From Streptomyces ferrugineus (GTDB lineage: Bacteria; Actinomycetota; Actinomycetes; Streptomycetales; Streptomycetaceae), in NCBI RefSeq assembly GCF_015160855.1, contig NZ_CP063373.1, forward strand, positions 6,820,001-6,884,000: a stretch of DNA of 64,000 nucleotides, given 5' to 3'. Positions 22,301-39,743 of the stretch are shown piece by piece (the stretch's first letter is position 1; each line of letters starts with the position of its first letter). A model generated the notes under the pieces. The model saw only the letters and a program-made list of their open reading frames with translations. It was not told the origin of the DNA and searched no databases. A program made the position numbers and the translations under genes.

Positions 22301-22585
22301 GGGCAACCTCCTTAGAACAAACCGTCGTTGACCTTCAACAGCACACCGTAGAACCATCGACCCGGGTTTGGGGAGCGCCTTCGTGCCGCCGGGATGATCC
22401 GGACCCCGGCCGCGGCCAACAGGGCCCTACGCCATGATCTGCGTGCCGTTCCGTCTCGAGCCCTCTGCCTGCTCAGCCGCTACGACGGCCGCCGCCTCGG
22501 CGAGTATCGCGGCTGCCCGCACACCGAACACCGTCCTCAGCGGAGAGTCGCAATCGTCCGATCGGTTCGGGTGAGGCACCGCGCT

Positions 22586-23314
22586 TCAGTGGCCCAGTCC
22601 GGCGCCGCCGTCGACCGGGATCACGGCGCCGCGCACATAGCCGGCACGGGCCAGGAACTCCACCGCGTCCGCGACTTCGTCGGGGTGGGCAGGGCGGCCC
22701 GCCGGGGTGTTGCTGAGCAGGTGCTGCCGCTGTTCCTCGGTGAGGGCTCGGCTCATGTCCGTCTCGGTCAGGCCGGGAGCCACCACGTTGCAGGTGATGT
22801 CGCGGGGGCCGAGTTCGTGGGTCAGCGATCGGGCGAACCCGACCAGTCCCGCCTTCGCCGCCGCGTAGTTGGTCTGGCCGGCGGCGCCGTGCAGTGCCGC
22901 CGTGGAGGAGACCAGCACGATACGGCCGTGACCCCGCGCGAGCATCCCGCGCACCGCGCGGCGGGCGACCCGGAAGGCCCCCGTGAGGTTGGTGTCGATG
23001 ACGGAGGTGAAGTCCTCCTCGCTCATCCGCACGAGCAGCCGGTCGTGGGTGACACCGGCGTTCGCGACCAGGACGGTGACCGGACCGTGGGCGGTTTCCG
23101 CCTCCTTGAAGGCCTGGTCCACCTGCTGTCCGTCCGTCACGTCGCACCGTACGGCGAGGAGGTTCTCGTCGGTGGGCGGCCTGTCACCGCGAAAGGTCAC
23201 CGCGACCCGGTCTCCCGCCGCCGCGAAGCGGCGGGCTATGGCCAGCCCGATCCCCCTGTTCCCTCCGGTCACGAAGACCGACCGAGCCTCGTCCCGTTCT
23301 CCGGTTCCCGCCAT
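22586..23314 (-). CDS. fabG: 3-oxoacyl-ACP reductase (ketoreductase, FabG-like)
   Basis: A 242-residue SDR. It has FVTGGNRGIGLAIARRF for NADPH, VANAG, the catalytic Ser in VLVSSTAALHG, and Tyr/Lys in TNYAAAKAG near residue 150, with PVDGGAGLGH at the end. Last gene of the long minus-strand biosynthetic operon, one base after the MFS gene. In this context it should reduce the beta-ketoacyl-ACP made by the ketosynthase pair, as in highly reducing type II PKS systems. Confidence 0.88.
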   Translation of the reverse strand: MAGTGERDEARSVFVTGGNRGIGLAIARRFAAAGDRVAVTFRGDRPPTDENLLAVRCDVTDGQQVDQAFKEAETAHGPVTVLVANAGVTHDRLLVRMSEEDFTSVIDTNLTGAFRVARRAVRGMLARGHGRIVLVSSTAALHGAAGQTNYAAAKAGLVGFARSLTHELGPRDITCNVVAPGLTETDMSRALTEEQRQHLLSNTPAGRPAHPDEVADAVEFLARAGYVRGAVIPVDGGAGLGH

Positions 23315-23315
23315 G

Positions 23316-24929
23316 TCAGTCCTTCCTCCCCAGTCCTGTCCTGCCTTGTTCTCTCTTGCCTTGTTCTCCCAAGCCCTGTTCTCTCTTGCTCTCGGCGCCT
23401 TGTGTGCGCAGCCCCACGACGGCTACGACAAACCCGGCGAAGGCCAGTACGGCGGTCCAGAACGTGGCCGCGTACATCGCGTCCAGGAAGGCGCGGTCGG
23501 CCGCGGCCGCCAGCTCCGGCAGTCGCAGTGAACCGGCCAGCGAGCGGGCGCTCTCGGCCGAGGTGCGGGCCTGCGCCGCCGTGTCCGCCGACAGTCCCTG
23601 CGGACCGACGGGCAGGACGGTGTCCGCCATGCGGTCCCGGTAGACGGCGGAGAGGATCGAGCCCGTCATCGCCACCCCGAGCGTGCCGCCGACCTGCCGC
23701 GTGACGCTGTTGACGGCCGACCCGGCGCCCGCGAGCCGCGGCGGCACCCCGCGCATCATCACGGCCGTGACCGGTGTGCCGACCAGACCCATGCCGAAGC
23801 CCTGCACCCACAGCAGGGCGGCGACGACGGTGATGGGGGTCCGTCCGTCGAACCACAGATAGCCGGCGTACGTGGCCGCCGTGGCCAGGACGCCGGCCGC
23901 GATCGTCCAGCGGGCCGATAACAGTCTGCTCATCGCCGGGGACGCCTGGCTGCCCAGGACGATGCCGACCGCGGCGGCGACCATGACCGTTCCGGCCTCG
24001 GCGGGGGAGAGTCCGCGGGGTCCCTGGAGGTAGAAGGCCGCGTAGAACAGATGCCCGGCCAGCGCCATGAACGCGATCAGCAGCACCACGCTCCCGGCCG
24101 TGAACCCGGGTTGCCGGAAGAGCCGCAGGTCCAGGCTGGGCGCCGGGGATCTGCGCTGACCGGCGACGAAGGCGGCCAGCAGGGCGCCGCCCAGGAGGAG
24201 CGGCAGGAGGACGTGTGCGCCGTACCAGGTTCGGCCGTTGCCGAGTTCGATGACGCCGTAGACCACACCGCCGAGGCCGAGCACCGACAGGGCGAGGCCG
24301 GGCAGGTCGAGCACCCTGCGCCCGGGACCCTTCAGCGCGGGCACCACGGCCGCCACCCCGGCCAGACACAGGGCCACGATCGGCACGTTGGCCAGGAACA
24401 CCGAACCCCACCAGAAGTGGTCGAGCAGCATCCCGCCCACGACCGGACCGACCGCCACCCCGAGGCCGCTGGACGAGCTCCAGATCGCGATGGCCCGGGT
24501 GCGTTTCTCCTCCGGGGTGCTCTGCACGATGACCGACAGGGTCGCGGGCATCAGCAGCGCACTGCCCGCGCCCATGAAGGCCCGCGCCACGATCAGCCAG
24601 GCCGGGCTCGGGGCGAAGGCGCCGGCGGCGGAGGCGGCGCCGAACAGGGCCAGACCGGCGAGGAGGGTGGCTCGGGGGCCGAAGCGGTCCGCGAGCGCGC
24701 CGCCCGCGAAGAGGGCGCCGGCGAAGACCAGGGTGTAGGCGCTCGCCACCCACTCCAGTTCGGCGGGGGTCGCGCCCAGGCCTTCGGCCGGGTCGGCCAG
24801 CGTGGAGACCGCGACGTTGAGGATCGAGGTGTCCAGCCAGATCAGCATCTGGGCGCAGACGACGACCAGGAGGACGGGCCAGGAGCGGGTGGGTGACGCC
24901 CGTTTCTCGGTCCTGCTTGCGGTGGTCAT
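23316..24929 (-). CDS. MFS efflux transporter, DHA2/EmrB-QacA type
   Basis: A 537-residue transporter with about 14 hydrophobic helices, the number typical of the DHA2 family. LADRFGPRATLLAGLALFG is the loop 2-3 motif and ASSSGLGVAVGPVVGGMLLDHFWWGSVFL-like residues form motif C around residues 150-175. It starts in an ATGA overlap with the lyase gene. The C-terminal tail is an odd low-complexity run of Gln/Gly/Arg/Lys after about residue 512. It is likely the exporter of the operon's product or a resistance pump. Confidence 0.88.
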   Translation of the reverse strand: MTTASRTEKRASPTRSWPVLLVVVCAQMLIWLDTSILNVAVSTLADPAEGLGATPAELEWVASAYTLVFAGALFAGGALADRFGPRATLLAGLALFGAASAAGAFAPSPAWLIVARAFMGAGSALLMPATLSVIVQSTPEEKRTRAIAIWSSSSGLGVAVGPVVGGMLLDHFWWGSVFLANVPIVALCLAGVAAVVPALKGPGRRVLDLPGLALSVLGLGGVVYGVIELGNGRTWYGAHVLLPLLLGGALLAAFVAGQRRSPAPSLDLRLFRQPGFTAGSVVLLIAFMALAGHLFYAAFYLQGPRGLSPAEAGTVMVAAAVGIVLGSQASPAMSRLLSARWTIAAGVLATAATYAGYLWFDGRTPITVVAALLWVQGFGMGLVGTPVTAVMMRGVPPRLAGAGSAVNSVTRQVGGTLGVAMTGSILSAVYRDRMADTVLPVGPQGLSADTAAQARTSAESARSLAGSLRLPELAAAADRAFLDAMYAATFWTAVLAFAGFVVAVVGLRTQGAESKREQGLGEQGKREQGRTGLGRKD

Positions 24930-26380
24930 CGCATGCCTTCCTCGTCAGGGGTGACGCCCGGGTCGCCGTACCTGCGCAGCGCCCGGTCGACGAGCGCGTC
25001 GGCCGCGCCCGTGTAGCCGGTCGGGTCGAGGAGTTCCGCCAGGCGGGCGGGGGTGAACCGGGCCGACAGTTCGGGGTGCTCGGACAGCAACTCGGCGAGC
25101 GGGCGCCCGGTGTCCGCCGCCTCGGCCGTGGCGGCGGACAGCAGTGTCTTCGCCCGTGCCTTGCCGAGTGCCGGGGCGAGCGCCACCGTCAGCCGCTCGG
25201 TGACGAGGGCGCCGCCGGTCAGTTCGAGGTTGGCGAGCATCCGCTCCGGACGGACGACCAGTCCCTCCGCAAGCTCCACGGCGGTGTGCGCGGCGCCGCC
25301 CGCGAGCCGTAGCGCCTCCCGGAGCGGCTGCCATTCGGCGTGCCACGCCCCGGCGGGCCGCTCGTCCTCGGCGAGCATGCACTGGGCCAGGACGAGGGCA
25401 TGCGCGGGGACCTGACGGGCGGCCGACACGATCAGGGTGGCGAGCACGGGGTTGCGCTTCTGCGGCATCGCCGACGAGGCCCCGCGCCCGGCCGCCGCGG
25501 GCTCGGACAGCTCGCCGATCTCGGTGCGGGACAGCGTCTGCACATCGAGTGCGAACTTCCCGAGCGCCCCGGTGACCAGCTGGAGCACCGCCCCCAGGTC
25601 GGCGACGGGGGTGCGCGCCGTGTGCCACGGGATCACCGGCTCGGCCAGCCCGAGCGCCCGCGCGAACGGCCGGAGCAACTCCGTACCGTCCTCGCCCGTC
25701 CCGCTCTCGCCCTGCCCGCCCTTGCCCCGCCCACCGTCCAGTACCGCGTACTCCCCGTACGCGGCGAGCGTGCCGGCCGCGCCGCCGAGCTGGGCCGGGA
25801 GCGTGGACGCGACGGCCCGTACCCGCGTCAGGGCGTCGGCGACCAGCTGGAGCCAGCCCGCCGCCTTGAGTCCGAGGGTGGTGGGCACCGCGTGCTGGGC
25901 CAGGGTGCGCCCGGCCAGCACGGTGTGGCGATGGGTGTCGGCCAGCGCGGCGAGGGCGGCGCGGACGCGTTCCAGGTCCGCGGCGATCAGGCCGAGCACC
26001 CGGCGGGCGACCAGCATGGCCGCCGAGTCGAGGATGTCCTGGCTGGTCGATCCGCGGTGTACGTACTCGGCGGCGGCCGGGTCCTTGGCGGCGACCAGCT
26101 CGGTGAACGCGGTGACCAGCGCGACCACCGGGTTGGCTGTGGCCCGGGCCGCGCGGGCGAGGGCGATCAGGTCCAGCCGGTCGGCGCGGGCCGCCGAGGC
26201 GATCGCCGCCACCGCGGCGGCGGGCGTGCGCCCGACGGCGTACTGGGCACGGGCCAGCGCCACCTCCGCGTCGAGCATGGCCTGCAGCCAGGCCTCGTCG
26301 GTCACCTCGGCAGCCGCCGGAGTGTCCGCCCAGGTGGGGGCGAGCAGGCCGGCGTCGGTGCCCACGGACAGCGCGTTCAC
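24926..26380 (-). CDS. creD: nitrosuccinate lyase (CreD homologue), fumarase/aspartase superfamily
   Basis: A 484-residue member of the fumarase/adenylosuccinate lyase/CMLE superfamily. It shows RGSTSQDILDSA, the thrice-conserved catalytic loop SSAMPQKRNP near residue 305, and HAEWQPLREALRLA. Alone it would be called 3-carboxy-cis,cis-muconate cycloisomerase-like. Next to a CreE-like monooxygenase it fits CreD, which eliminates nitrous acid from nitrosuccinate to give fumarate. GTG 26380 is used: it has GGGAG upstream and overlaps the CreE stop as GTGA. A Gly/Glu-rich insertion (about residues 212-230) is unusual. Confidence 0.85.
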   Translation of the reverse strand: MNALSVGTDAGLLAPTWADTPAAAEVTDEAWLQAMLDAEVALARAQYAVGRTPAAAVAAIASAARADRLDLIALARAARATANPVVALVTAFTELVAAKDPAAAEYVHRGSTSQDILDSAAMLVARRVLGLIAADLERVRAALAALADTHRHTVLAGRTLAQHAVPTTLGLKAAGWLQLVADALTRVRAVASTLPAQLGGAAGTLAAYGEYAVLDGGRGKGGQGESGTGEDGTELLRPFARALGLAEPVIPWHTARTPVADLGAVLQLVTGALGKFALDVQTLSRTEIGELSEPAAAGRGASSAMPQKRNPVLATLIVSAARQVPAHALVLAQCMLAEDERPAGAWHAEWQPLREALRLAGGAAHTAVELAEGLVVRPERMLANLELTGGALVTERLTVALAPALGKARAKTLLSAATAEAADTGRPLAELLSEHPELSARFTPARLAELLDPTGYTGAADALVDRALRRYGDPGVTPDEEGMR

Positions 26381-28293
26381 GCTCGTCGACTCCCTGTCTC
26401 GGATATCTGATGTGACGTCAAAACATCGGAACAAGCTGGGACTTCGGCCTCCGGAAACCCCAGAGCCGCCCGTGCGATCGCGTCCGAGTCCTCCAGCGTC
26501 ACCGAGCCGACGCCGGGTCTGACACCCACCGCCGTCACCCAGCGCACCCCCTCCGTCGGCACCCCGAAGGCGAACCGGCGCGGATGCGCCCTGCCCGCCG
26601 CGTCCACCAGCCGGGGCGGGCCGTCGGTCACGGCCAGCCCGCCCTGCCGGTACGGGACACAGTCACCGGCCGAGAGGAGCGACCGCAGCAGGGGGTTGGC
26701 GGTGCGCCGCAGCTCGGTGCCGGGCAGCCGTGCCTCGATCAGCGCGCGGACCGGCACCGGCGGCTCGGACACCGCCTCCGCGTCCACGAGGAACCCGCCC
26801 GCGCGCGCCGAGGGCCGTACGCGCATCCCCGGCCCGACGATGTGCAGCACCCCCGCTTCGATCAGCGCGATCAGCTGCTCGATCCGGAAGGCCGGCGGGC
26901 CGATCGAGGTGAAGGCGTTCAACGGCGTGTACCAGCCGTCCAGTTCGGCACGGTAGGACGTGTCACGGACGCCGCCGTGGTCGACCACCAGCCGGATCTC
27001 GTTGCGCAGGTCCCGCAGGGCGTCCAGCGCGGTCTTCAGCGGCCCGTCCACATTGCCGAGGCGGGCCTCGGCGACATCCCGCCGCAGGTACTCCAGCAGC
27101 CAGTGCCGGAAGTCGTCGCGGTCGGCGAAGGCGCGCTCGCCGTACGGGCGCTCGACGCGCCGCCAGTCCCACCGCTCGCCGGCCGGCACCGCGTACCGGT
27201 CGAGCAGGGCCGCCTCGGGACACCGGCCGGCGAGAGCGGAGCGTACGAACTCCTCGGCGGCCGGGGCTCCGTGGGCCGCGCGGATCCACGCCTCGTAATA
27301 GACCGTCCGGACCTCACGGTCGATCAGCGGCCAGATGTCGCGGCGAAAGCGCACGGGCCGCCGCCGCAGTCCGGCGATCACCTCCGGGGTCAGAAAGCGG
27401 GGGTGGTGACGGCCGAGCGCGCCCTTCTGGTTCTCGCCCCGCGAGTGGTACGGCACTCCGCGCCGCGAACCGGCGTACAGCACCGGCTCGTTGCCGCTCG
27501 GGAGGTACACCGGACCGTGCTCGCTCTCCTTGAACGTGCCGCCGCGGCCCTCGGTGAGCAGCGCCAGATGGTCGAAGAAGGTCAGCCCCAGGCCGCGCAG
27601 GGCGACCGGTGTGCCCGGCGCGATCCCGGTCAGGTCGACGTCGGCCGGGCCGGCGGGCCCCACGTAGGTCAGACCGTGCCGGTCCGCGAAGCCGGCCAGC
27701 GTGCGTTCCTCCTGGCCGGGGAGCTGCTCCGCGTGGCCAAGCGCCAGTACCACCGCGTCCATCCCGGCCCGCCGTCCGCCGTTCGCCAGCGTCACCGTCT
27801 GCCTTCCGTCGGGGGTGTCGTCCAGCGCGACCGCGGTCGACCGGTGCGTGTGAACCGTCACCTCCTCGGGCGCGGTGTGTAAGAGATGCCGGAACACCCA
27901 CTCCAGGTAGTGGCCGTGGAACGCCCGGGTCGGATAGGAGTCCGGGCCGAGCCGCCGTGCCTCCTCCAGGACGTGGAGCGGGTGGCCCTCGGTGTCCCGC
28001 TCGATCATGCGCGCCCATGCGTACAGGCTGGGCCCGGGCACCGACGGGCCCGCGCAGTCCACGCTGTCGTCGGTGAACAGGGTCACCTGGGAGGCGACCG
28101 TGTTCATCAGCAGCTCGCCCGGCTGGCCGGTGCGCCACACCGCGCCCGGACCGGGCGGGTAGGGGTCGACGAGGTGCACCGCGACCGGCCGGGCGGTGCC
28201 CGCTGCGTTGGCGCAGATCCGCTCCAGGACGGACAGGCCGCGCGGACCGGCGCCGATCACACAGATGGCGAGGGCGTCGACGGGGCCGCTCAC
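26377..28293 (-). CDS. creE: aspartate N-monooxygenase (CreE homologue), FAD/NAD(P)-binding
   Basis: A 638-residue flavoprotein of the FAD-NAD(P)-binding PF13454-like family. The N-terminal dinucleotide motif is ICVIGAGPRGLSVLERI (about residues 7-23), followed by WRTGQPGELLMNTVASQVTLF. A second cofactor region (VVLALGHAEQLPG) is near residue 190. CreE uses FAD and NADPH to oxidise L-aspartate stepwise to nitrosuccinate, the substrate of CreD. The adjacent CreD homologue makes this assignment strong. The GTG start overlaps the previous gene's TGA. Confidence 0.85.
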   Translation of the reverse strand: MSGPVDALAICVIGAGPRGLSVLERICANAAGTARPVAVHLVDPYPPGPGAVWRTGQPGELLMNTVASQVTLFTDDSVDCAGPSVPGPSLYAWARMIERDTEGHPLHVLEEARRLGPDSYPTRAFHGHYLEWVFRHLLHTAPEEVTVHTHRSTAVALDDTPDGRQTVTLANGGRRAGMDAVVLALGHAEQLPGQEERTLAGFADRHGLTYVGPAGPADVDLTGIAPGTPVALRGLGLTFFDHLALLTEGRGGTFKESEHGPVYLPSGNEPVLYAGSRRGVPYHSRGENQKGALGRHHPRFLTPEVIAGLRRRPVRFRRDIWPLIDREVRTVYYEAWIRAAHGAPAAEEFVRSALAGRCPEAALLDRYAVPAGERWDWRRVERPYGERAFADRDDFRHWLLEYLRRDVAEARLGNVDGPLKTALDALRDLRNEIRLVVDHGGVRDTSYRAELDGWYTPLNAFTSIGPPAFRIEQLIALIEAGVLHIVGPGMRVRPSARAGGFLVDAEAVSEPPVPVRALIEARLPGTELRRTANPLLRSLLSAGDCVPYRQGGLAVTDGPPRLVDAAGRAHPRRFAFGVPTEGVRWVTAVGVRPGVGSVTLEDSDAIARAALGFPEAEVPACSDVLTSHQISETGSRRA

Positions 28294-29204
28294 TCCTTGC
28301 CCAGCCCGTCCCGCCAACTCGGGTGCAGCGGCTTGAAGCCCAGTGCCGTACGGGCCCGGTCGTTCGCCGCCCCGCGTGCCGTGGTCAGCTGATGGGCCAT
28401 GAACCAGCCCAGCAGCCGGGGCGCGAGCGCCGCCGGGACGGTGCGCGGGGGCGGGGCGCCGAGCGCGCGGGCGTAGTGCGGGAGCCACTGGGCGGCCGGG
28501 GTCGGTTCGTCGTCGGTCGCGTGGAAGACGCCGGTCGCCGTCGACTCGACGGCCGCCACCGCGGCCCCCACGGCGTCGTCCACGTGCAGGAACGACGTGA
28601 CTCCGGCGCCGCCTTCCGGCAGCGGCAACTTCCCGCCCAGCACCCGCTGTCCGGTCCCGCCGTCCCGGGCGTACGCGGTGCCGGGGCCGTACAGCGTGCC
28701 GTACCGCAGCACCACCCCCGCGAGGTCGCTGCCCGTAACGAGCCGCTCCAGCTCGGCGACGGCCCGTACGGTGGCGGCCCAGCCGGGGTCCGAGGCGTCC
28801 ACGTACAGCCGCGCGTCCTCGTCGAGGACCGGCGGCCCTTCCGGCGCGGCGGCGAAGGCGATGGACTGGGCTATCAGCCGCCGTGCGCCGGCCGCGCGGG
28901 CCGCCTCGGCCAGATTGGCGGTGCCCTCCGTGCGCAGCCGCGCGGTCTGCGCGAAGGCCGCCGGAGGGTCGTCGCGCAGCAGCCGCAACGCCGACAGTTG
29001 GTGGACGACCACCTCGGGCCGGGCGGCGGACACCGCCGACAGCACGGCCTCGCGGTCGAGGGCGTCGGCGACCACTACCCGGTCCGCCTCGGGCGCCCGC
29101 GAGGCGTCCCGCACCAGTGCGCTCACCTCGTGGCCCCGCGCCCGCAACGCGCCCACCAGGGGATGTCCGACCACGCCGGTGGCCCCGGCGACCAGCACGC
29201 GCAT
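28290..29204 (-). CDS. NAD(P)-dependent extended SDR (epimerase/reductase), candidate diazo reductase
   Basis: A 304-residue extended short-chain dehydrogenase. The N-terminal motif is VLVAGATGVVGHPLVGAL, with DALDREAVLSAV following. The usual YxxxK is not obvious: the expected position reads near SDPGWAATVRAVAELE, so classic epimerase chemistry is doubtful. It lies between the ANS genes and the second ANL ligase. In the avenalumic acid pathway, as I recall, an NADPH-dependent enzyme (AvaA7) replaces a diazo group with hydride; this gene is the best local candidate for such a step. That role is inference. Confidence 0.7.
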   Translation of the reverse strand: MRVLVAGATGVVGHPLVGALRARGHEVSALVRDASRAPEADRVVVADALDREAVLSAVSAARPEVVVHQLSALRLLRDDPPAAFAQTARLRTEGTANLAEAARAAGARRLIAQSIAFAAAPEGPPVLDEDARLYVDASDPGWAATVRAVAELERLVTGSDLAGVVLRYGTLYGPGTAYARDGGTGQRVLGGKLPLPEGGAGVTSFLHVDDAVGAAVAAVESTATGVFHATDDEPTPAAQWLPHYARALGAPPPRTVPAALAPRLLGWFMAHQLTTARGAANDRARTALGFKPLHPSWRDGLGKE

Positions 29205-29207
29205 GCG

Positions 29208-29765
29208 TCAGCCCTCCCCATCGTCGGAGACCGGCGCGGCGACCCGCATCAGCAGACGGCACGCCTTGTCGCCGTCCCGCAGGCAGCTCTCGGCCCTGTT
29301 CTCCGTGAGGGTCACGCCGAGGCCCTCCGACCAGCCCGCGTGGATGTCCGTGCACGGGCAGCGGTAGCCCTCCAGCGAGCCGGCCATCCGCACCATGGTG
29401 ACGGCGAAGCTCCGCTTCAGCGTGAGCACGATCAGGTCGTCGTCCTCGATCTCGGTGGAGGCGTTGCGCAGCTCCGGCGGGAACATCCGGTCACCGCAGT
29501 CGTCGTAGCGGCGGCGCAGTTCCTCCAGGTCCTTGCGGGTGTCACCGGTATCCGGGAGCGGACCGGAGAGGCGGCCGACGCGCTGTGCGACGTGCAGGGC
29601 GATCTTGCGCAGCGCCTCGGCGTTGATCTCGTTCGCGACCTCCTGCCCGAACCGCGCGGCCACCCCCTGGTACCAGTTGGCGTCGTGCTGCCACCACAGC
29701 CGGTACGCCTCGCCCGCTCGGGCGCGGTGGTTGACGCCGTCGCCGCCGGTCGTGTTCGTGCTCAT
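29208..29765 (-). CDS. ATC-hydrolase/DUF6125-like protein of unknown role
   Basis: A 185-residue soluble protein. The N-terminal half (AYRLWWQHDANWYQGVAARFGQE...) resembles the L-2-amino-thiazoline-4-carboxylate hydrolase-like/DUF6125 family; the C-terminal half has a CPCTDIHAGWSEGL segment with closely spaced Cys and His, and a later SCLRDGDKAC that could bind a metal or a substrate. It starts in an ATGA overlap with the ligase gene, so it is made with it. Its function is not known to me; conserved linkage with a diazotase-type ligase would suggest a partner in the diazo chemistry. Confidence 0.6.
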   Translation of the reverse strand: MSTNTTGGDGVNHRARAGEAYRLWWQHDANWYQGVAARFGQEVANEINAEALRKIALHVAQRVGRLSGPLPDTGDTRKDLEELRRRYDDCGDRMFPPELRNASTEIEDDDLIVLTLKRSFAVTMVRMAGSLEGYRCPCTDIHAGWSEGLGVTLTENRAESCLRDGDKACRLLMRVAAPVSDDGEG

Positions 29766-31426
29766 GCGTGCTGCTCCTTGGCGGCGAACCTGTCGCGCAT
29801 CACTCGTTTCAGAACCTTGCCGGTGGCGCCCTTGGCCACGTCGTCGGGCTTCATCCGCAGGGCCCGGTGCACCGGGGGGAATCCGGCGGTCGTCAGCACC
29901 GCGTTGACGCGCCCGGTCCACACCTCGTCGTCGGCAGCGTCTTGGTCGACGACCTGGAGCAGCGCGTACGCCTCGGCCTCTCCGTCGCCGTCCCAGTCCG
30001 CCCGTACGCCGTCCGGGGCGACCCCGACGACCGTGCAGTCGGCCAGCTCGGGCAGCTCGGCGAGCAGGAGTTCCTCGGTGCGGGTGCTGAAGACGATGCC
30101 GCCCGGGGTGCGGATGGCGTCCGGCGCCCGGTCAAGGTGGTAGAAGTTGCCGTCCTCGTCCTGGTGGGCGAGGTCTCCGGTGAGCCAGTAGCCGCCGAGC
30201 CGCATCCGGTTCCAGGTCAGCGAGTCGTTCCAGTAACCGGGCGTGAGTGTCGGGGACTTGAGGCCGAGGCGGCCGATCTGCCCCGGCGGCAGCGGGATGC
30301 CGTCCTCCGAGAGCACGGCGGCCTCGGCGAAGCTGATCGGCTTGCCGATGCAGCGCGAGTAGGCGTCGGTGTCCTTGGTGTGCCGGTTGTGGAAGACGGA
30401 GTAGCCGGCCTCCGACGAGCCGAGCCCGTCCACGAAGACCGAACCGTCCACGCGGACGCGGCGCAGGTCCCGGCCGATCTTCAGGTGGCTGCCGTGCTCC
30501 ACCAGGGCGCGGATGTGCGCCTCGTGCGCCGCGTCCCCGGTGTTGAACCACACCTGCACACTGGACAGGTCACGCCTGGTCAGGTCCTCGGCGGCCATCT
30601 CGCCGAACGTCCCGGCGAAGGCCAGCACGGTGGTCGGCCGGAACTCCTCGACCGCGTCGAGCACGTCGGCGCCGCGCTGGCTGGACAGGAGCTTGATGTC
30701 GGTGCGCAGCAGCAGGCAGTACAGCAGCGTCGCCACCATGGCGTTGTGCGCGCCCGGCAGCCCCACCAGGGTGCGCTCCATGTCGGTCCCGGTGGAGTAG
30801 CGCAGCCGGTGCAGCTGCGCGTACATCAGGGTCCGGTGGGTGTGCGGTACGCCCTTGGGCATGCCGGTGGTGCCGGAGGAGTGCGAGATGAGCACCGGGT
30901 CGGTCGGGTCGTGCCGGTACGGGTACGGCGGCGGCAGCGACGCGCGGTGCTCCGGGCGGATGTCGGCGGCGGTGACGTGGAAGGCGAGCCCGGGCCCGGA
31001 ATCCGCGAGCGCCGCCCGGTGCGCCTCGTCCGTGAACGCGCCGACCGCGCCCTGCCGGAGTACGTACGCGCGTGCCGTCTCCGGGGCGAGATTGCCGTTG
31101 ACGTACGACGGGATCGCGCCGAGGGACGTCAGCGCCAGGAAGTTCACCGCGAACTCGGCGCTGGAGTAGGAGTGGATGGCGACCGGGTCGCGGGGCCGTA
31201 CCCCGTGGGCGGCGTACCAGCCGGCGTAGGTCTCGACCGCCTCGTACAGCTCGCCGAGCGTCAGCGTCTCGGGGCGGCTGCCGTCGGGCGCCCGCCAGGT
31301 GCCGTCCGTGCGCAGTACGGGTTCGTCGAGCGGGCGGCCGTACGCCTTCAGGCGGTCCAGGACGTTGCCGGCGCCCAGTTCGGTGTCGGAGCAGATCCGT
31401 GCCCGCTCCTGCCTACTGATGAGCAT
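29762..31426 (-). CDS. ANL-superfamily ATP-dependent ligase, candidate diazotase (CreM/AvaA6/CmaA6-like)
   Basis: A 554-residue adenylating enzyme. The P-loop is LISHSSGTTGMPKG (about residues 176-190), A5 is DGLGSSEAGYSVF, A7 is YWLTGDLAHQD, and the A10 Lys is in KGATGKVLKR near the C-terminus. It begins 14 bases inside the end of the short ketosynthase gene, with GGAGA upstream. The operon also has CreE/CreD for nitrous acid, and ANL enzymes of the CreM/CmaA6 group activate nitrite with ATP to diazotize an aryl amine. This gene is the more likely diazotase; an acyl-CoA or acyl-ACP ligase role remains possible. Confidence 0.75.
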   Translation of the reverse strand: MLISRQERARICSDTELGAGNVLDRLKAYGRPLDEPVLRTDGTWRAPDGSRPETLTLGELYEAVETYAGWYAAHGVRPRDPVAIHSYSSAEFAVNFLALTSLGAIPSYVNGNLAPETARAYVLRQGAVGAFTDEAHRAALADSGPGLAFHVTAADIRPEHRASLPPPYPYRHDPTDPVLISHSSGTTGMPKGVPHTHRTLMYAQLHRLRYSTGTDMERTLVGLPGAHNAMVATLLYCLLLRTDIKLLSSQRGADVLDAVEEFRPTTVLAFAGTFGEMAAEDLTRRDLSSVQVWFNTGDAAHEAHIRALVEHGSHLKIGRDLRRVRVDGSVFVDGLGSSEAGYSVFHNRHTKDTDAYSRCIGKPISFAEAAVLSEDGIPLPPGQIGRLGLKSPTLTPGYWNDSLTWNRMRLGGYWLTGDLAHQDEDGNFYHLDRAPDAIRTPGGIVFSTRTEELLLAELPELADCTVVGVAPDGVRADWDGDGEAEAYALLQVVDQDAADDEVWTGRVNAVLTTAGFPPVHRALRMKPDDVAKGATGKVLKRVMRDRFAAKEQHA

Positions 31427-32216
31427 GGGTCTCCGTCTCGTCGCTTGCGGTGAGGACAAACGCGGCGGGGCCGGGCAGGAGCAGGTTCCCGCCGTCCCGC
31501 AGCAGCCGTCGGTGGGCGGCGACCAGGTCGAACAGGCCCTGGATACCGCCAGGACGGTCAACGGCCCCGGCGTCGGGGCCGGGGGCCTCCGCCGACCGGA
31601 CCGTCATCGGCGCCCCGGCCCCGGCACGGCCGAGCAGCACCGCGGCCGCCAGGCCTGCGGACGCGGGGAGGTCCGGCACCGGGCGGTCACTGTCGGCGGT
31701 CAGTTCCCGGTGCACGGCGGCCAGCCGCTCGCTGCCGCCCAACTCCACACCCAGCACCAGGACACGGTCCAGCTCCGGGTCCTCCAGCAGCAGATCCGCC
31801 ATGGCCAGCAGCTCGGTCACCGGGTCGTCGAAGGAGGAGATGCTGAACATCTGCCCGGTGATCTGGAACTCCCGGCTGATGTGGCCCAGTACGGAGTTGG
31901 GCGTGGCCTGCATGAACAGCAGCGGGTTGTGCACCTTGCCGGAGACCATGCGACTGCTGGCCAGGTCGGCGGTGGTGGTGTCGCCCAGCAGACTGCCCAG
32001 CGCCACGGCGGTGCGGGAGCAGTCACCCGGCCGCTCGGTCAGGCACTGTCTGCTCACCTCGTACGCCAGCGGGCTGAACGCCGACTCCACGAAGCCGGGC
32101 AGCCTCGGCAGCGGGATGTCGTCGTCCCGGCCGGTGCCATGGGTGGCGGTGGCGGTGGCGAGAATGCCGAGGGGTGCGCGGAGCACGGTCTTCTGGCTCG
32201 TCGTCATCTTCGTCAC
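31413..32216 (-). CDS. short chain-length-factor-like ketosynthase (Ketoacyl-synt_2 type)
   Basis: A 267-residue ketosynthase-like protein, far shorter than a 400-residue KS-beta. It aligns with the N-terminal thiolase half: GSLLGDTTTADLASSRMVSG, NPLLFMQATPNSVLGHISREF, and a block like FSISSFDDPVTELLAMADLLL where KS-alpha carries its nucleophile. No Cys occupies the active-site position, as expected for a chain length factor. Such short partners are known from aryl polyene clusters. GTG 32216 follows GGAG and overlaps the KS-alpha stop; an ATG three codons later is possible. Confidence 0.75.
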   Translation of the reverse strand: MTKMTTSQKTVLRAPLGILATATATHGTGRDDDIPLPRLPGFVESAFSPLAYEVSRQCLTERPGDCSRTAVALGSLLGDTTTADLASSRMVSGKVHNPLLFMQATPNSVLGHISREFQITGQMFSISSFDDPVTELLAMADLLLEDPELDRVLVLGVELGGSERLAAVHRELTADSDRPVPDLPASAGLAAAVLLGRAGAGAPMTVRSAEAPGPDAGAVDRPGGIQGLFDLVAAHRRLLRDGGNLLLPGPAAFVLTASDETETHAHQ

Positions 32217-33394
32217 GGCCGCTCCAGCACGAGTGCGGTGTTGGCGCCGCCGAACGCGGCGTTGACGGTGAGAGCCCGGCGCAGATCGGCCTGGCGTGGC
32301 CGGTTCGGCACGTAGTCGAGGTCGCACTCCGGGTCCGGCTCGGTGAACCCGGCGGTCGGCGGCAGTACGCCGTCCGTCAGGGCCAGCAGGGTGATCACGA
32401 ACTCCACGACGCCCGCCGCCTCCAGGAGGTGGCCTGTGGTGCTCTTGGTGGAGCTGACCGGTATCGACTCGGCCCGGTCCGGGAAGGCGGCGCGCAGCCC
32501 GCGGGTCTCCGCCCCGTCGTTGTACTTGGTGCCGGTGCCATGGGCGTTGACGTAGTCGAGGACCGCCCCGTCCGGATCGCCCGCGAGCCGCATCGCCTGC
32601 AGCGCCGCCCGCGCCAGCCCCGCTCCCTGCGGGTGCGGTTGGGCGATGTGGTGGGCGTCCGTGGCCGCGCCCCAGCCCACCACCGACGCCAGCGGCCGGG
32701 CGCCCCGGCGCCGGGTGTGCTCGGCGGACTCCAGCACCACGACCGCCACCCCGTCGCCGAGCAGCAGCCCGCTGCGGTCCGCGCTGAACGGGCGCACCAT
32801 GCCGTCCCGGGACAGTGCCCGCCCGGAGTCGAACTTCCCGAAGGTCTCCTCCTCCACCAGGTAACCGCCGGCGCAGATCGCCACGTCGGTCCGCCCGGAG
32901 GCGATCAGCCGACAGCCGTGGACGATCGCGGCGGCGGAGGCGACGCAGGCGTTGGTGAAGGTCAGCCGTGGTCCGCTCAACCGGAGCTGTGCGGCGAGCA
33001 GTTCGGCGAGCTGGGCGGGTACGGCGTCGGCGGCCCGCTCCACGGCCGCGTCCGCGCCGTCGGCCTCGGCGGCGTTGCGCCAGTACCGCGTGACGCTGGT
33101 GTGGTCGCCTGCCACGCCGAGCAGGACCGCTGCCTCCGTGCCCGGGCGCAGCCCCGCCATGTCGAGGGCCTGCGTACCGCACTCGGCGAGGGCGTGGCGC
33201 AGGGCCCAGTGCTCGACCGCGTCGGGGCCGTCGGGGGCGGCGGCGGCCATCGGCGTACGGTACGGGCCGGTGTCGAACCGGGTGGTGGGCGCGAAGGCGG
33301 GGACTCCCGCGAAGACCCCGCGCCGCAGGGCGTCGGCACCGGTGCCGAACGCGGTGCGTACCCCGAATCCGGTCACCGTGACCTCACTGCTCAT
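32213..33394 (-). CDS. beta-ketoacyl-ACP synthase (KS-alpha, type II PKS)
   Basis: A 393-residue ketosynthase with a complete catalytic set: Cys in TNACVASAAAIVHGC near residue 150, His in VNAHGTGTKYND near 287, Lys in SSTKSTTGHLLEAAG with the second His near 321, and NAAFGGANTALVL at the C-terminus. It overlaps the ACP gene by 11 bases and the short partner by GTGA. It most likely forms a heterodimer with the 31413 protein and extends an aminohydroxybenzoyl starter with malonyl units. Confidence 0.9.
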   Translation of the reverse strand: MSSEVTVTGFGVRTAFGTGADALRRGVFAGVPAFAPTTRFDTGPYRTPMAAAAPDGPDAVEHWALRHALAECGTQALDMAGLRPGTEAAVLLGVAGDHTSVTRYWRNAAEADGADAAVERAADAVPAQLAELLAAQLRLSGPRLTFTNACVASAAAIVHGCRLIASGRTDVAICAGGYLVEEETFGKFDSGRALSRDGMVRPFSADRSGLLLGDGVAVVVLESAEHTRRRGARPLASVVGWGAATDAHHIAQPHPQGAGLARAALQAMRLAGDPDGAVLDYVNAHGTGTKYNDGAETRGLRAAFPDRAESIPVSSTKSTTGHLLEAAGVVEFVITLLALTDGVLPPTAGFTEPDPECDLDYVPNRPRQADLRRALTVNAAFGGANTALVLERP

Positions 33395-33647
33395 CGCGCC
33401 CGCCCTCCTCGACGGCACGCAGGTACGCGGTGAGCCGCCGCAGTGAGGTGAGCCCGGAGATCTCCTCGTCGCTGGGCTCCACGACCAGGCCGTAGCGTTC
33501 CTCGACCACATGCAGGAGCCACACCAGCCCGAGTGAGTCCAGGACCAGTTCGGCGTCCTCGCCGAGATCGTCGGGCAGGCCCGGGAAGATGTTCCGGTCC
33601 GACAGCAGCTCCCGGACGGAGTCGGTGGTGAAGGTGGCCGTGCTCAT
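33384..33647 (-). CDS. acyl carrier protein 1
   Basis: An 87-residue carrier protein. The phosphopantetheine Ser is in LVLDSLGLVWLLHVVEE (Ser38), and the helical acidic profile and length are typical. It overlaps both neighbours, including ATGA with the second ACP. One of the two carriers probably holds the aryl starter and the other the malonyl or growing chain. Confidence 0.9.
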   Translation of the reverse strand: MSTATFTTDSVRELLSDRNIFPGLPDDLGEDAELVLDSLGLVWLLHVVEERYGLVVEPSDEEISGLTSLRRLTAYLRAVEEGGRDEQ

Positions 33648-33919
33648 GCCTTCGCACCGCGCCGGATCACCTCGGCAACGAGTCCGCCGAGGGTGAGGGA
33701 GGCCAGCGGCTCGATGTCGGTGTCCGGTATCTCCACGCCGAACCGTGACTCCAGCCGCAGCGTCAGTTCGATCAGGCTCAGTGAGTCCACCTCCAGCCCG
33801 TCGACGGTCATCGGGCTGTCGTCCGTGATGCCTTCGCGGCTCAGCAGGACGTTCATCTCGTCGATGACCGAGGTCAGGATGAACTCGCGGATCTCGTCTT
33901 CCAGGGTCGACGTACTCAT
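33644..33919 (-). CDS. acyl carrier protein 2
   Basis: A 91-residue carrier protein with the attachment Ser46 in LEVDSLSLIELTLRLE and FGVEIPDTDIEPLASLTLGGL following. ATG 33919 is chosen for its GGAG site nine bases upstream; a GTG five codons earlier is less likely. It is diverged from ACP 1, which supports separate starter and extender roles. Confidence 0.9.
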   Translation of the reverse strand: MSTSTLEDEIREFILTSVIDEMNVLLSREGITDDSPMTVDGLEVDSLSLIELTLRLESRFGVEIPDTDIEPLASLTLGGLVAEVIRRGAKA

Positions 33920-33961
33920 GATCGATGTCTCCACGTGAAGGGTCGAAAAGGAGGGAAGGAA

Positions 33962-33987
33962 GAGAGGGAAGCAGGAGAGGGAAGCAG
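33962..33987. repeat. 13-bp tandem repeat in a purine-rich spacer
   Basis: GAGAGGGAAGCAG occurs twice head to tail within a 94-bp gap that is almost all purine on the plus strand (pyrimidine in the operon mRNA). This is one of the few real gaps in the operon, between the starter ligase and ACP 2. Slippage could have created it; a regulatory role is unproven. Confidence 0.5.
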
Positions 33988-34013
33988 GGGTGTGGGAGTC
34001 AGTGGCGCGTGGG

Positions 34014-35444
34014 TCAGGAACCGCCGCCGGGCGCAGCCGCCTGCAGCACCGCTGCCTGGCGCAGCAGCTTCCCGTTGGACGTGCGGGGCAGGGACTCCAG
34101 CACCCGGATCACCCGCGGCAGCTTGTAGTCGGCCAGCCGCTCCCGGCACCAGCGCAGCAGCTCCTCGGCGGACGGCCGCTCGGCCCCGGCGGCCGGGGCG
34201 ACGTACGCCTCGGTCACGCCTTCGTGGACCAGGACCGCCTGCTGAACCGCCGGATGCTCGCGGAGCACGTTCTCGACCTCCAGGAGGTCCACCTTGAGGC
34301 CGCCGATCACGACGAGGGAGTCCGCGCGGCCGTGCACCAGCACCGTCCCGGAGGCGTCCACCGTGGCGCGGTCGCGGGTGTGCAGCCAGCCGCCCGTGTA
34401 CTGGGTGCCGCCGGAGTCGAAGAGGTACGGCGACTCGTCGAGGGCCACATCCAGTTCGCCCCGGTGTTCCCGTACGACCACTCCCGGTGCGGCCCGGCCG
34501 ACCGCCGGCCGCAGGGTGCCGTGAGCGTCCATGGCGACCACACCGGTCTCCGTGGTGCCGTAGGACTCGCCGACGGCAAGCCCGTAGCGTTCCGCGAACC
34601 GCGCCGCGACCTGCGGGGGCATCAGCTCGCCGCCCGACACCGCGACCCTCAGCTCGGGCAGCGCGGGGGGATCACCGGCGGTGGCGAGGAGTTCGTAGTG
34701 CATCGGCACCCCGAACAGGGTGGTGACCCGGTGCTCCACCGCGGTCCGCAGGATGTCGCGGGCGGAGATCCGGGGGGCGAAGACCACGCAGACCCCGGCC
34801 GCGAGCGAGTGCAGCAGACCGGCGATCAGACCGAAGCTGTGCGCCGTCGAGCTGAGCAGCAGCAGCCGGTCGCCCGCGCCCGGCATGCCCGGAATACGGG
34901 TGAACCGGTCCACCTCGGCGGCGAGGGAACGGGCGGTTCTGCCGATCACCTTCGGCCGCCCGGTGGAGCCCGAGCTGAACTGGACCAGTCGGTGGCCGGT
35001 GCCGGCCGGGCGACCGCCGCCGACGCGCTCGGTGACGACCTCGTACTCGGACCGGAAACCGAACGTCGCCCGCGCGTTGGTGCCCGCGCTGACCATGAAC
35101 TGCGGCCGGCAGGAGGCGCACAGTGCGCTGACCTCGGCCGGTTTGAGCCGGAAGTCGAAGAGCAGCACCTGGGCGCCGAGCCCCCACAGCGCGAGCAGCA
35201 CCTCGACCTGAGTGAAGCTGGGCGGCGTCCGCAGGCCGACGGTGCTGCCCGCGCCGATGCCGTATCCGGCGAAGACCGCGGCCTGCTTGGCCACCCGGTC
35301 GCGCGACTCCGCTCGGGTGAGCGTCTCCTGGCGGTGGGTCAGGTAGGGCAGTTCGCCGTCGTGCGCGTCGAAGAGACTTCGGACGAGGGACCGCATGCCG
35401 TCGTCGTGCCCGTCCGGCGCGAGGCTCGCCGCGCGTTCGCCCAT
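34014..35444 (-). CDS. ANL-superfamily acid-ACP/CoA ligase, likely starter-loading
   Basis: A 476-residue adenylating enzyme. The P-loop is VQFSSGSTGRPKV, A5 is VGESYGTTETGVVA, A7 lies in GGWLHTRDRATVD, A8 is GRADSLVVIGGLKV, and the A10 Lys is in PRTSNGKLLRQ. ATG 35444 is preceded by GGAGG. It sits between the GriH/GriI pair and the two ACPs, so it probably activates 3-amino-4-hydroxybenzoate and loads it on a carrier protein. A diazotase role is less likely but not excluded. Confidence 0.78.
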   Translation of the reverse strand: MGERAASLAPDGHDDGMRSLVRSLFDAHDGELPYLTHRQETLTRAESRDRVAKQAAVFAGYGIGAGSTVGLRTPPSFTQVEVLLALWGLGAQVLLFDFRLKPAEVSALCASCRPQFMVSAGTNARATFGFRSEYEVVTERVGGGRPAGTGHRLVQFSSGSTGRPKVIGRTARSLAAEVDRFTRIPGMPGAGDRLLLLSSTAHSFGLIAGLLHSLAAGVCVVFAPRISARDILRTAVEHRVTTLFGVPMHYELLATAGDPPALPELRVAVSGGELMPPQVAARFAERYGLAVGESYGTTETGVVAMDAHGTLRPAVGRAAPGVVVREHRGELDVALDESPYLFDSGGTQYTGGWLHTRDRATVDASGTVLVHGRADSLVVIGGLKVDLLEVENVLREHPAVQQAVLVHEGVTEAYVAPAAGAERPSAEELLRWCRERLADYKLPRVIRVLESLPRTSNGKLLRQAAVLQAAAPGGGS

Positions 35445-35448
35445 GCGG

Positions 35449-36687
35449 TCAGACCTCCTTGCAGAACTCGCCGATGGGCAGACCCACATGGCGCTTGTCC
35501 GTGGCCAGGTAGCCGAGCAGCTCGTCACCCGTCTGCAGTTCGGTGACGTTGAGGACCTTGCCGCCGGGGCCGAGCACCCGTACGTGCCAGTCGTCCTGCA
35601 CGGTCAGGCTGACCAGCCGTCCGTCCTCGGCGTGGGTACGGATCTCCAGCAGCGGCCGGGACTCCAGCTTGGCGCGGCCGACCACCACCCGCCGGGTGCG
35701 CCCGTCGGCACCGACCGCCAGCAGGGCGGTGCCGGAGCCGACCTCGCTGAGGTAGTTGGTGCGGTTGTCGGGGCCGAGCGTGTACGAGTGCAGGGCGCCG
35801 GCGTTGACCCGGAACGGCCGGGTCGGCATGTAGGGCAGCGGGTGGGTCTCGGAGCAGCACAGCACGAACCCGGAGGAGTAGGAACCGACGAGGATGCCCT
35901 CGTCCTCCTCGAAGTGCGAGCAGGTGTCCACACAGACCCGGTCGCCGAGCCCGACGTGCCGGATGCTCTCCACGGTCAGCGTGGACAGCTCCAGCTGGGG
36001 TGTGGTGGCCTGAAGCAGCCGGGCCAGCGCGAACACGTCGTCGGCGCTGCGGGGCGTGAACAGGATGCCGTCCGAGCCGCGCTCCAGCACGTCGAAGACG
36101 ATCGCCGCCTCCTCCAGGCCGTCGACGACGGTCACCAGTTTGCCCTCGGCCGACTCGGCCGCGGCGAGCACGATCTCCAGTGGGATCTTGGTCGGGTCGG
36201 CGAAGTGGATGACGGTGTACGGCAGCGCCATGGCGCCCGTGCAGGACAGCTGCAGGGTGCGGTCGTCCCGTACGTCGATGAATCCGGCTACGGGTGTGCC
36301 GGTACCGGGCGTGCCGGTGCCGACGGCGCGGTTGCTCGCGGCGAGGGCGTCCAGCTCGTCCTGGGTGGTGAACGTCCGCAGCAGGACGTCGGCTCCGGGG
36401 CGGGACGCGGGGTTTCCGGTACCGGCCGCGGAACCGGCGGGCTCGGCCGGTGACTTGCCGTCGGCGGCGGGCTTCGCCGTCTTGCCGTCGGGCTTCTTCG
36501 CGGCGGCGACGGCAGCCCCGGCCGGGCCCCCGTCGGCCAGGACCCGGGTGACGGTCGGGGGCAGCGTCGCGAGCAACTCGGCGTCGGCGGAGAGCACGCC
36601 CGCCATCCGGGCATGGACGGCGGCGTCCACGACCGCCTGGATCTGCTGTCGGGGGACTTCACGGAGGTCGATCCATGCGAATCTCAT
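35449..36687 (-). CDS. griH: GriH homologue: 3-dehydroquinate synthase II-type 3,4-AHBA synthase
   Basis: A 412-residue member of the archaeal-type 3-dehydroquinate synthase II (AroB') family. It opens with [12 protein letters not shown] and carries GSYSSGFVLCCSETHPLPYMPTRPFRVNAG and NYLSEVGSGTALLAVGADGRTR, both strongly conserved in the family. GriH with GriI makes 3-amino-4-hydroxybenzoate in grixazone and related pathways, and CreH/CreI do so for cremeomycin. A Lys/Ala/Pro-rich insertion of about 35-40 residues (about residues 60-95) is unusual. Start overlaps the GriI stop as ATGA. Confidence 0.88.
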   Translation of the reverse strand: MRFAWIDLREVPRQQIQAVVDAAVHARMAGVLSADAELLATLPPTVTRVLADGGPAGAAVAAAKKPDGKTAKPAADGKSPAEPAGSAAGTGNPASRPGADVLLRTFTTQDELDALAASNRAVGTGTPGTGTPVAGFIDVRDDRTLQLSCTGAMALPYTVIHFADPTKIPLEIVLAAAESAEGKLVTVVDGLEEAAIVFDVLERGSDGILFTPRSADDVFALARLLQATTPQLELSTLTVESIRHVGLGDRVCVDTCSHFEEDEGILVGSYSSGFVLCCSETHPLPYMPTRPFRVNAGALHSYTLGPDNRTNYLSEVGSGTALLAVGADGRTRRVVVGRAKLESRPLLEIRTHAEDGRLVSLTVQDDWHVRVLGPGGKVLNVTELQTGDELLGYLATDKRHVGLPIGEFCKEV

Positions 36688-37559
36688 GCGACACCTGCCA
36701 CGATCGTCGAGTAGTCGGTGGGGGTTTGTGTGCTCTTGCCGGAGGCGCGGTCGGCGTCCGGGACGCTCCGAGCTCCGCGGTGCACGACGGCGGAGAGCCG
36801 AGACACCAGCGCACAGGGGGAGGGGGCCGAGAAGATCCGGCGGCCGATGGCCAGCCCCTGGCAGCCGGCATCCATCACCGCGGTGCCGTACGCGACGAGG
36901 TCGGAGCCGTCCGGCGGACCGCCGGCCGCGAGGATCGGGATGGGGCTGGCCGCCACGACCTCGGCCATCCGCTCCAGCGGCAGGGCGACGGAGGTCTTCA
37001 CCATGTCCGCGCCCAGATCCGCGGCCACATTGGCCAGATGCGCGAGCAGGGCCGGGTCGCGCGGATCCGCGATCCGGGAGCCGCGAGGGTAGACCATCGC
37101 GATCAGCGGCATGCCCCACGCGTCGCAGGAACGCGCCACCGCCCCGAGATCGCTGATCTGCTGCGCCTCGGTGTCCGAGCCGATGTTGACGTGCACGCTC
37201 ACCGCGTCCGCGCCGAGCCGCAGCGCCTCCTCGACATCGGCGACCAGCACCTTGGCGTGCACGTCGGCGGAGTGGGCGGTGCTGGCGCTCAGGTGCACCA
37301 CCAGCGCGCAGCTCTTGAGGATGTCCGGAGCGAAAGCGCGGGCACGTCCCTTGTGGACGATGATCCCGTCGGCCCCGCCGTCCACCAGTGCGCGCACCAG
37401 GCCGTCCCACTGGTCGGCGGGGACGATCGGGCCGTCCGAAACGCTGTGGTCGAGCGGTACGAGGAGATGCCGGCCGTCTCCGGCCAGCGAAAGTCTTCTC
37501 AAGCGAAATAGCTTGCCGGTTTTCAGCATGGGTAACGCTCCGCCCCCATCCATAGTCAT
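36684..37559 (-). CDS. griI: GriI homologue: DhnA-type aldolase (2-amino-4,5-dihydroxy-6-oxo-7-phosphooxyheptanoate forming)
   Basis: A 291-residue class I aldolase of the DhnA/AroA' family. [39 protein letters not shown] and [10 protein letters not shown] mark the TIM barrel; the Schiff-base Lys is in [11 protein letters not shown] near residue 188. GriI condenses aspartate 4-semialdehyde with dihydroxyacetone phosphate for GriH to cyclise into 3,4-AHBA. First gene of the operon. ATG 37559 is chosen for its GGAA site; the frame extends upstream to 37769 through an AT-rich leader that looks non-coding. Confidence 0.88.
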
Positions 37560-37948
37560 TGGTGCGCGTTCCTTCAATGTCCGAAAATCGACGGTCGTAG
37601 AAGTTTCAAGTTCCTCCGGGGCGTCAGCATTCCGCGCTTGATCAGCCGTTGGCAAGGGTGCGTCGGGAGGCAAATATTCATGCAATTGCGCGTATAAATA
37701 TTGAAAGGAAGTTGACAGGTGGCGGGGGGTTGACGCCTTGGAGAGGTGCATATTGGGGTGCAGTTCCATGCATTAGGTAGATCTGTCCGAACTCGTAGCC
37801 GCATCGGGTGTTTCATTACTGATGACGCGTGCAAATAGCCGATCCCACTGTCCGGCTTTTCGAACGATGCGACTTCCTCGTCAATTTCTTGTCGAAATTG
37901 AATTCCCGGGTCTAGGGTGCCCTCCGTCCCCATCTGAATGGATTCCCC
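37560..37948. other. AT-rich divergent leader region of the biosynthetic operon
   Basis: This 389-bp gap between the GriI gene (minus) and the MHS transporter (plus) is markedly poorer in GC than its surroundings, especially 37670-37715 with TATAAATATTG. It must carry the operon promoter and probably that of the transporter. A TATACG hexamer (37691-37696 read on the minus strand) could be a -10 for GriI, but no good -35 pairs with it, so no promoter is assigned. An inverted repeat at 37881-37901 is listed separately. Confidence 0.5.
37881..37901. promoter_or_regulatory. 8-bp-arm inverted repeat, candidate operator
   Basis: TCAATTTC and GAAATTGA face each other across five bases, about 48 bp before the MHS transporter start and about 320 bp before the GriI start. 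The AT-rich perfect arms in a GC-rich genome suggest a protein-binding site; the binding regulator is unknown. Confidence 0.45.
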
Positions 37949-39350: not shown

Positions 39351-39743
39351 TCATACCTCTGCGGACAACGAGCCCGCCGCGTTCTGCGCCTCGAATCCCG
39401 CCAGGAGTGCCCGGGGGTCGAAGGTCACCCGGATCCGGGTGACCTTCCCGTCTTCCACATGCATCCAGTTCGCCGTCGGGGTAGGTGGCGCAACGCTTGT
39501 GCACAGGTCGAACCAGGTGATCACTTCACCACCTTCCGCCACCCGCACCTTCACGTCGATCTTCTCCAGTACCCGGCCAAGCCCCTTCAGCCCAGCGAGC
39601 GCCTCGTCCACCCCCGACGCCGTTCCCAGCGCTCCGACGAAGTCGACATTCTCGGCCAGCACCCCCCGCAAGGCATCGAAGTCGCCCGCCTCCCAGGCGG
39701 TGAAGTAGGTCTCGGCAACCTCTCGCGCGGTCCTCGTCGTCAT
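39351..39743 (-). CDS. SnoaL/NTF2-like domain protein
   Basis: A 130-residue NTF2-fold protein: AREVAETYFTAWEAGDFDALRGVLAENVDFVGALG is the standard opening of SnoaL-like proteins, and MHVEDGKVTRIRVTFDPRALLAG the last strand. The family includes polyketide cyclases, isomerases and many orphans. It is divergent from the LysR regulator, with 70 bp between, so it is the probable target of that regulator. ATG 39743 with GGATGGAGG just upstream. Confidence 0.8.
   Translation of the reverse strand: MTTRTAREVAETYFTAWEAGDFDALRGVLAENVDFVGALGTASGVDEALAGLKGLGRVLEKIDVKVRVAEGGEVITWFDLCTSVAPPTPTANWMHVEDGKVTRIRVTFDPRALLAGFEAQNAAGSLSAEV

Follow-up and report, generated by a model that had tools for sequence, protein, structure and literature searches.

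A probable orthologue of the avenalumic acid (ava) gene cluster in Streptomyces ferrugineus

The cremeomycin (cre) cluster joins the aspartate-nitrosuccinate (ANS) pathway to nitrite, encoded by creE and creD, with a ligase-type diazotase, CreM. Its amine derives from 3-amino-4-hydroxybenzoate (3,4-AHBA), no polyketide synthase (PKS) extends it and the final product retains its diazo group. The avenalumic acid (ava) cluster of Streptomyces sp. RI-77, a kind described in 2022 (Kawai et al., here as related in parts of PMC10777205 and PMC11705231), has twelve core genes in the order I-H-A1-A2-A3-A4-A5-A6-B-A7-E-D. According to passages of PMC10777205 the p-coumaric acid (cma) cluster of Kutzneria albida shares these twelve genes in the same order, and carries a flavin mononucleotide (FMN) oxidoreductase, CmaG, and a LysR regulator, CmaR, but no AvaA8-type ketoreductase. 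In this work we compare these systems with a 64,000-nucleotide stretch of Streptomyces ferrugineus (contig NZ_CP063373.1, positions 6,820,001 to 6,884,000; hereafter the window), which lies between 6.82 and 6.88 Mb in a genome of 9.96 Mb assembled as one contig. We put the probability that its cluster is an orthologue of ava, with avenalumic acid as the predicted product, at roughly 0.92, judging from sequence comparison. The gene combination is already known from other soil bacteria and published, its product resembles plant compounds, and this strain adds what looks like one more complete copy.

All 15 ava genes in Table 1 of PMC10777205, in the part of that paper used here, have counterparts in the window: 14 minus-strand genes at 22586-37559, which form a single tight operon-like array, and a divergent transporter of the major facilitator superfamily (MFS). 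The twelve core genes stand in an order identical to that of RI-77, and the accession numbers published for AvaA6, A7, E and D follow this order too in the passage of PMC11705231 that gives them. For comparison 89 related stretches were confirmed in a species-level genome collection and 80 were kept: 42 ava-type loci, 28 cma-type or other loci and 10 distant ligases (L071-L080). The ava-type and cma-type or other loci were separated by hand from identity and synteny, protein starts in the other loci were estimated from alignment, and protein searches scored only the candidates with the most shared words. The gene order is repeated across the ava-type loci, which excludes chance. The features are as follows.

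36684..37559, minus: AvaI counterpart, GriI-type aldolase (Pfam DeoC, 6.9e-48; 74-90% identity to 37 full-length ava-type orthologues)
35449..36687, minus: AvaH counterpart, GriH type, dehydroquinate (DHQ) synthase II family (Pfam DHQS, 1.5e-103; 80-88% to 39 ava-type orthologues)
34014..35444, minus: AvaA1 counterpart, ligase (Pfam AMP-binding and AMP-binding_C; 75-92% to 38 ava-type orthologues)
33644..33919, minus: AvaA2 counterpart, extender (malonyl) acyl carrier protein (ACP) (Pfam PP-binding; DSL motif; no W..H motif)
33384..33647, minus: AvaA3 counterpart, starter ACP (no Pfam match; DSL motif; W43..H46)
32213..33394, minus: AvaA4 counterpart, ketosynthase (KS) (Pfam ketoacyl-synt N and C; Cys-His-His motifs)
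31413..32207, minus: AvaA5 counterpart, short chain length factor (CLF) (no Pfam match; 82% identity to nr record P0130)
29762..31426, minus: AvaA6 counterpart, predicted ATP-dependent diazotase (90-92% identity to P0010)
29208..29765, minus: AvaB counterpart, reported stimulator of the PKS (78-93% to 42 ava-type orthologues at the corresponding position)
28290..29204, minus: AvaA7 counterpart, predicted NADPH-dependent enzyme replacing diazo by hydride (Pfam Epimerase, 3.7e-21; 75-91% to 38 ava-type orthologues at the corresponding position)
26377..28293, minus: AvaE counterpart, CreE-type predicted aspartate N-monooxygenase giving nitrosuccinate (Pfam NAD_binding_9)
24926..26380, minus: AvaD counterpart, CreD-type predicted nitrosuccinate lyase releasing nitrite (Pfam Lyase_1 and ADSL_C; SSAMPQKRNP loop)
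23316..24929, minus: in-operon MFS exporter, putative AvaF/CmaF counterpart by identity (Pfam MFS_1)
22586..23314, minus: AvaA8 counterpart, FabG-like ketoreductase (Pfam adh_short_C2, 1.9e-54; 81-91% to 32 ava-type orthologues)
37560..37948, no strand: divergent intergenic region, presumed from its sequence to carry the operon promoter (228-632 bp equivalents in 13 relatives examined)
37949..39316, plus: divergent MFS transporter, probably AvaC (Pfam MFS_1)

An earlier, sequence-only reading had placed 14 minus-strand genes in one operon here, and this is confirmed. The families it named agree with Pfam, which finds a DeoC/LacD aldolase, DHQS II, two AMP-binding ligases, one PP-binding ACP, a KS, NAD_binding_9 (CreE type), Lyase_1/ADSL_C (CreD type), MFS and a ketoreductase of the short-chain dehydrogenase/reductase (SDR) family. 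At E 0.001 neither the second ACP (87 aa) nor the CLF (264 aa) matches a Pfam family, so both were assigned through position and orthology. Start/stop overlaps, described there as nearly universal, occur at 8 of the 13 junctions, while four junctions are gaps of 1-5 bp and the A1/A2 gap is 94 bp. That reading named twelve of the 14 genes and left the AvaB and AvaA7 counterparts unnamed; it also ended the set at 37559, whereas the cluster continues to the divergent MFS gene.

Two Ava proteins were compared directly, A6, for which a named record exists, and the CLF. The window diazotase has 90.7% global identity (92% over aligned columns) to P0010, the named 3-aminoavenalumate diazotase AVAA6_STRSQ. 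The CLF shares 82% identity with P0130 ('chain length factor [Streptomyces sp.]'), which is almost certainly AvaA5. In a CLF tree of 64 rows, a 99/99 branch has all 43 ava-type rows on one side, the window and P0130 among them, and these two fall within one 7-row group with support of 100/97. The tree omits L068, because of a frame artefact, and six loci whose CLF was estimated at no more than 200 aa (L051, L053, L054, L055, L058 and L067). The AvaA7 counterpart owes its name to its position and orthology; of 6188 A7 matches, the 120 listed include no record named AvaA7, record names being incomplete. Relative to the RI-77 cluster, A6 and the CLF have diverged to an ordinary degree, and some residues of A7 and E are unusual.

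The core gene set is also that of a cma-type cluster, in which one malonyl unit is added and p-coumaric acid is the product; the CLF argues against this. Our cma reference is L051, from Kutzneria viridogrisea, whose diazotase aligns without mismatch over 542 residues to PDB 8ztz, which we take to be CmaA6. Global identities between 12 window proteins and those of L051, whose starts are estimated, correlate at r = 0.98 with the published ava/cma values, and the CLF value is 35.2 against a published 35.4 (from part of PMC10777205). The window CLF thus has 35% global identity to the L051 CLF, compared with 82% to the presumed AvaA5, and it stands on the ava side of the 99/99 branch. Since L051 and other Kutzneria CLFs do not appear in the tree, L051 was compared through identity; on tree and identity together the window CLF is not of the CmaA5 clade. 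The AvaA8-type ketoreductase also speaks against a cma-type cluster, since full-length counterparts occur in 0 of the 28 cma-type or other loci. We consider p-coumaric acid a very improbable product.

The two MFS genes were named in the same way. The in-operon protein has 45.5% global identity to the divergent MFS of L051, near the 45.9% published for AvaF/CmaF, so the in-operon gene is most likely AvaF and the divergent one AvaC, names that come from identity and not from a gene map. The divergent MFS gene is full-length in 28 of 42 ava-type loci and has no match in the 28 cma-type or other loci. No FMN oxidoreductase family was matched among the 20 gene products scanned with Pfam, CmaG itself not being used as a query.

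Taken by type, the window holds AvaH and AvaI homologues, an AvaA4/AvaA5-type KS-CLF, an AvaA6-type diazotase, AvaA8, an AvaC-type MFS and an AvaA7-type enzyme. With the cre cluster it shares a ligase-type diazotase, an amine predicted to derive from 3,4-AHBA and the ANS pathway, its adjacent CreE and CreD homologues keeping their catalytic residues (CreD judged on the SSAMPQKRNP loop alone). Unlike cremeomycin-type clusters, which retain the diazo group and have no enzyme to remove it, the window has the A7 counterpart. The spinamycin (spi) cluster, as presented in part of PMC11705231, is like the window in its aryl polyene, which for the window is a prediction, and in its CreE and CreD homologues and AvaA6-type diazotase, SpiA7; it differs in its fused SpiED, in an aryl amine without hydroxyl and in keeping the N-N bond in the product.

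From these homologies we infer a complete pathway for this strain. I and H, catalysing GriI/GriH-type steps one and two, would make 3,4-AHBA from primary metabolites. The A1 counterpart is predicted, by homology to CmaA1/AvaA1 (parts of PMC10777205), to load it onto the starter ACP, A3. The same passages say that Trp38 and His41 mark CmaA3/AvaA3, and W43..H46 in the window has equal spacing. The KS and CLF (A4/A5), with the malonyl ACP A2 and ketoreductase A8 and with help from B, would add two malonyl units and form the diene of 3-aminoavenalumic acid, a dehydratase and a thioesterase being supplied from outside the operon. E and D would convert aspartate to nitrite, with which A6 may diazotise the amine at the expense of ATP. 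A7 would then exchange the diazo group for a hydride from NADPH, releasing N2, and an MFS pump would export the resulting avenalumic acid. For the Cma and Ava proteins A1 loading, A6 diazotisation and A7 kinetics have been shown (in passages of PMC10777205), and avenalumic acid has been produced heterologously (in part of PMC11705231).

The sequence-only reading had proposed a 3,4-AHBA starter, malonate extension, ANS nitrite and a ligase-type diazotase, all of which homology bears out, and its likeness to the ava and Kutzneria p-coumaric acid systems holds for core gene set and order. It left product and exact logic undetermined, with the diazo group either kept or replaced by hydride. The presence of the AvaA7 counterpart leads us to predict the hydride arm and not diazo retention, and the grouping of the CLF with the presumed AvaA5 leads us to predict two malonyl units and not one; together they point to avenalumic acid. 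The high novelty claimed for the locus does not stand, as the kind was described in 2022 and more than 100 members are known (passages of PMC10777205 and PMC11705231). This remarkable set of genes already has an explanation, which extends to its likely product.

The genes appear intact. There are no internal stops in any operon gene, and the ratio of nonsynonymous to synonymous substitution rates (dN/dS) against L006 and L016 is 0.18-0.41 in 12 genes, the two ACPs being left out. Decay of the operon is ruled out by this purifying selection in the genes tested and the lack of internal stops. The core motifs, read by their generally known meanings, are kept: the KS Cys-His-His, the ACP serines, the ligase P-loops and C-terminal lysines, the CreD loop, the SDR YxxxK of A8 and the aldolase lysine, found in I as MVKTS. 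Several comparisons used a D protein with 12 extra residues (start at 26416, a GTC codon, in place of the GTG at 26380, which has GGGAG upstream), and the conclusions are unaffected.

Several observations nevertheless weigh against avenalumic acid as the product. The Pfam scan finds no dehydratase and no thioesterase encoded within the operon, and the native ava host gave no avenalumic acid under the conditions tried, as stated in part of the review PMC11705231. A7 departs from 4 of 84 near-invariant columns (P132R, P138S, V111I and W290F), the second most of 60 sequences, and position 132 is proline in 120 of 120 homologues among the matches listed. If these four residues weakened or changed A7, the otherwise complete cluster might keep the diazo group and release 3-diazoavenalumic acid or a product derived from it. 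We give this little credence, because A7 is full length, keeps its identity to the ava-type orthologues and has a dN/dS of 0.21-0.25.

The E protein departs from 6 of 240 near-invariant columns, the fourth most of 35. One departure is N238T, at a site where all 34 orthologues carry Asn. The window's 8-row CLF group contains six loci; five of them (L001, L002, L003, L012 and L063) have wholly or partly lost E and/or D, and L006 alone keeps both. Impaired nitrite supply could therefore be imagined, in which case the pathway would end at 3-aminoavenalumic acid or an N-acetyl shunt unless nitrite came from elsewhere; an unlinked second CreE homologue (59%) in the same genome, at C1:2166211-2168007 (L081:16136-18079), would also fit. 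The protein itself suggests otherwise. It matches the FAD-binding protein 8cp2 (phmmer 9.2e-192), which we take to be the aspartate N-hydroxylase of PMC10404684 because the residue numbering agrees with the parts of that paper used here. Nine residues named there as contacting substrate or flavin are kept in E, as mapped by hand on the 8cp2 alignment: Arg13, Asn62, Arg266, Arg276, Arg409, Arg412, Asn413, Arg416 and Arg577. N238 corresponds to 8cp2 residue 219 and lies outside the residues named in those passages, and the dN/dS of E (0.32-0.37) is inside the range of the other genes. Impaired nitrite supply is thus quite unlikely, though marginally less so than either alternative product above. 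Elsewhere near-invariant columns are departed from at 2 of 118 in I and 1 of 267 in the divergent MFS, with none in the remaining genes.

Within the genus, the diazotase was matched at E up to 1e-150 in 18 of 295 genomes, the window's own included. Twelve of the other 17 matches have 86-93% identity, three have 71-72% and two have 51-52%. Thirty-five of the 42 ava-type loci extend 6 kb or more beyond the A7 (or B) match; E and D are both present in 20 of these, neither in 13 and D only in two, while A7 is found in 34, A8 in 31 and the in-operon MFS in 22. Kawai et al. 2024, in the part of PMC10777205 used here, counted 134 ava-related clusters, 72 of which are without E and D. A plasmid search with the A6 DNA found nothing.

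Some individual relatives deserve mention. Near 13.1-13.9 kb, L002 has part of E missing and D intact, and L003 keeps just the N-terminal part of E and the C-terminal part of D; an assembly fault is possible in both. The ava-type L036 has D without E (13208-14641), and a CreE homologue (60%) lies on another contig of that genome. In the ava-type cluster of Streptomyces scabiei 87.22, A7 is a 33-residue C-terminal remnant (L064:12328-12426), and a full copy, 80% identical, lies about 1 Mb away. Goodfellowiella (L056) has no A7, E or D after B; an A7-like match (49%) lies elsewhere in the genome, and CreE gives none at E up to 1e-60. In Crossiella (L065) a 54% AvaA6-like ligase is followed by a 60% CreE homologue (10.0-13.4 kb), and there is no AvaI or AvaH match in the 20 kb locus.

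The most useful by-product of this analysis is a set of three cma-type relatives without detectable A7 in the genome (L039, L040 and L044). Past B, beyond about 12.2 kb, these loci have no match to A7, E or D, and searching the whole genomes for A7 gives nothing at E up to 1e-40. The same genomes do carry CreE homologues (about 60% identity) outside the loci. They are candidates for diazo- or amino-retaining products, and fit the idea of a kept diazo group where the window does not. The question therefore moves to why many actinomycetes use a costly route from amine through diazo to hydride to reach avenalumic or p-coumaric acid, and to what the relatives without A7 release.

Other observations concern the window and its genome more broadly. 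TTA codons, which in Streptomyces suggest bldA-dependent translation, occur at codon 9 of I, codon 138 of E and codon 337 of the in-operon MFS. Alignment of the intergenic region with relatives shows short conserved blocks, in which no operator was identified. The AvaB counterpart has a weak match to DUF6125, under the Pfam cut-off, and the AvaH counterpart is the sole genome match at E 0.001. The second CreE homologue stands beside DoxX, VTT and ketopantoate-reductase-like genes, and CreD has no match within the surrounding 36 kb. Elsewhere, at C1:6376033-6377316, lies a CreD-like copy (60%) that contains a single internal TGA.

Neighbouring genes were also considered as cluster members. A LysR gene at 39742-40689, beyond the divergent MFS, matches weakly (23-38%) in the cma-type or other group, at 19 of its 28 loci, and was rejected as an ava-type member, with one weak 30% match (L063) in the 42 ava-type loci. 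The methyltransferase at 21491-22357 was rejected too, having no match in any of the 80 loci. An aldehyde dehydrogenase (18190-19674), a DAO protein (20011-21294) and a cytochrome P450 (41306-42499) were set outside the cluster on position alone. The same applies to a Rieske protein adjoining a large PPDK_N/PEP-utiliser fusion at 57958-62359.

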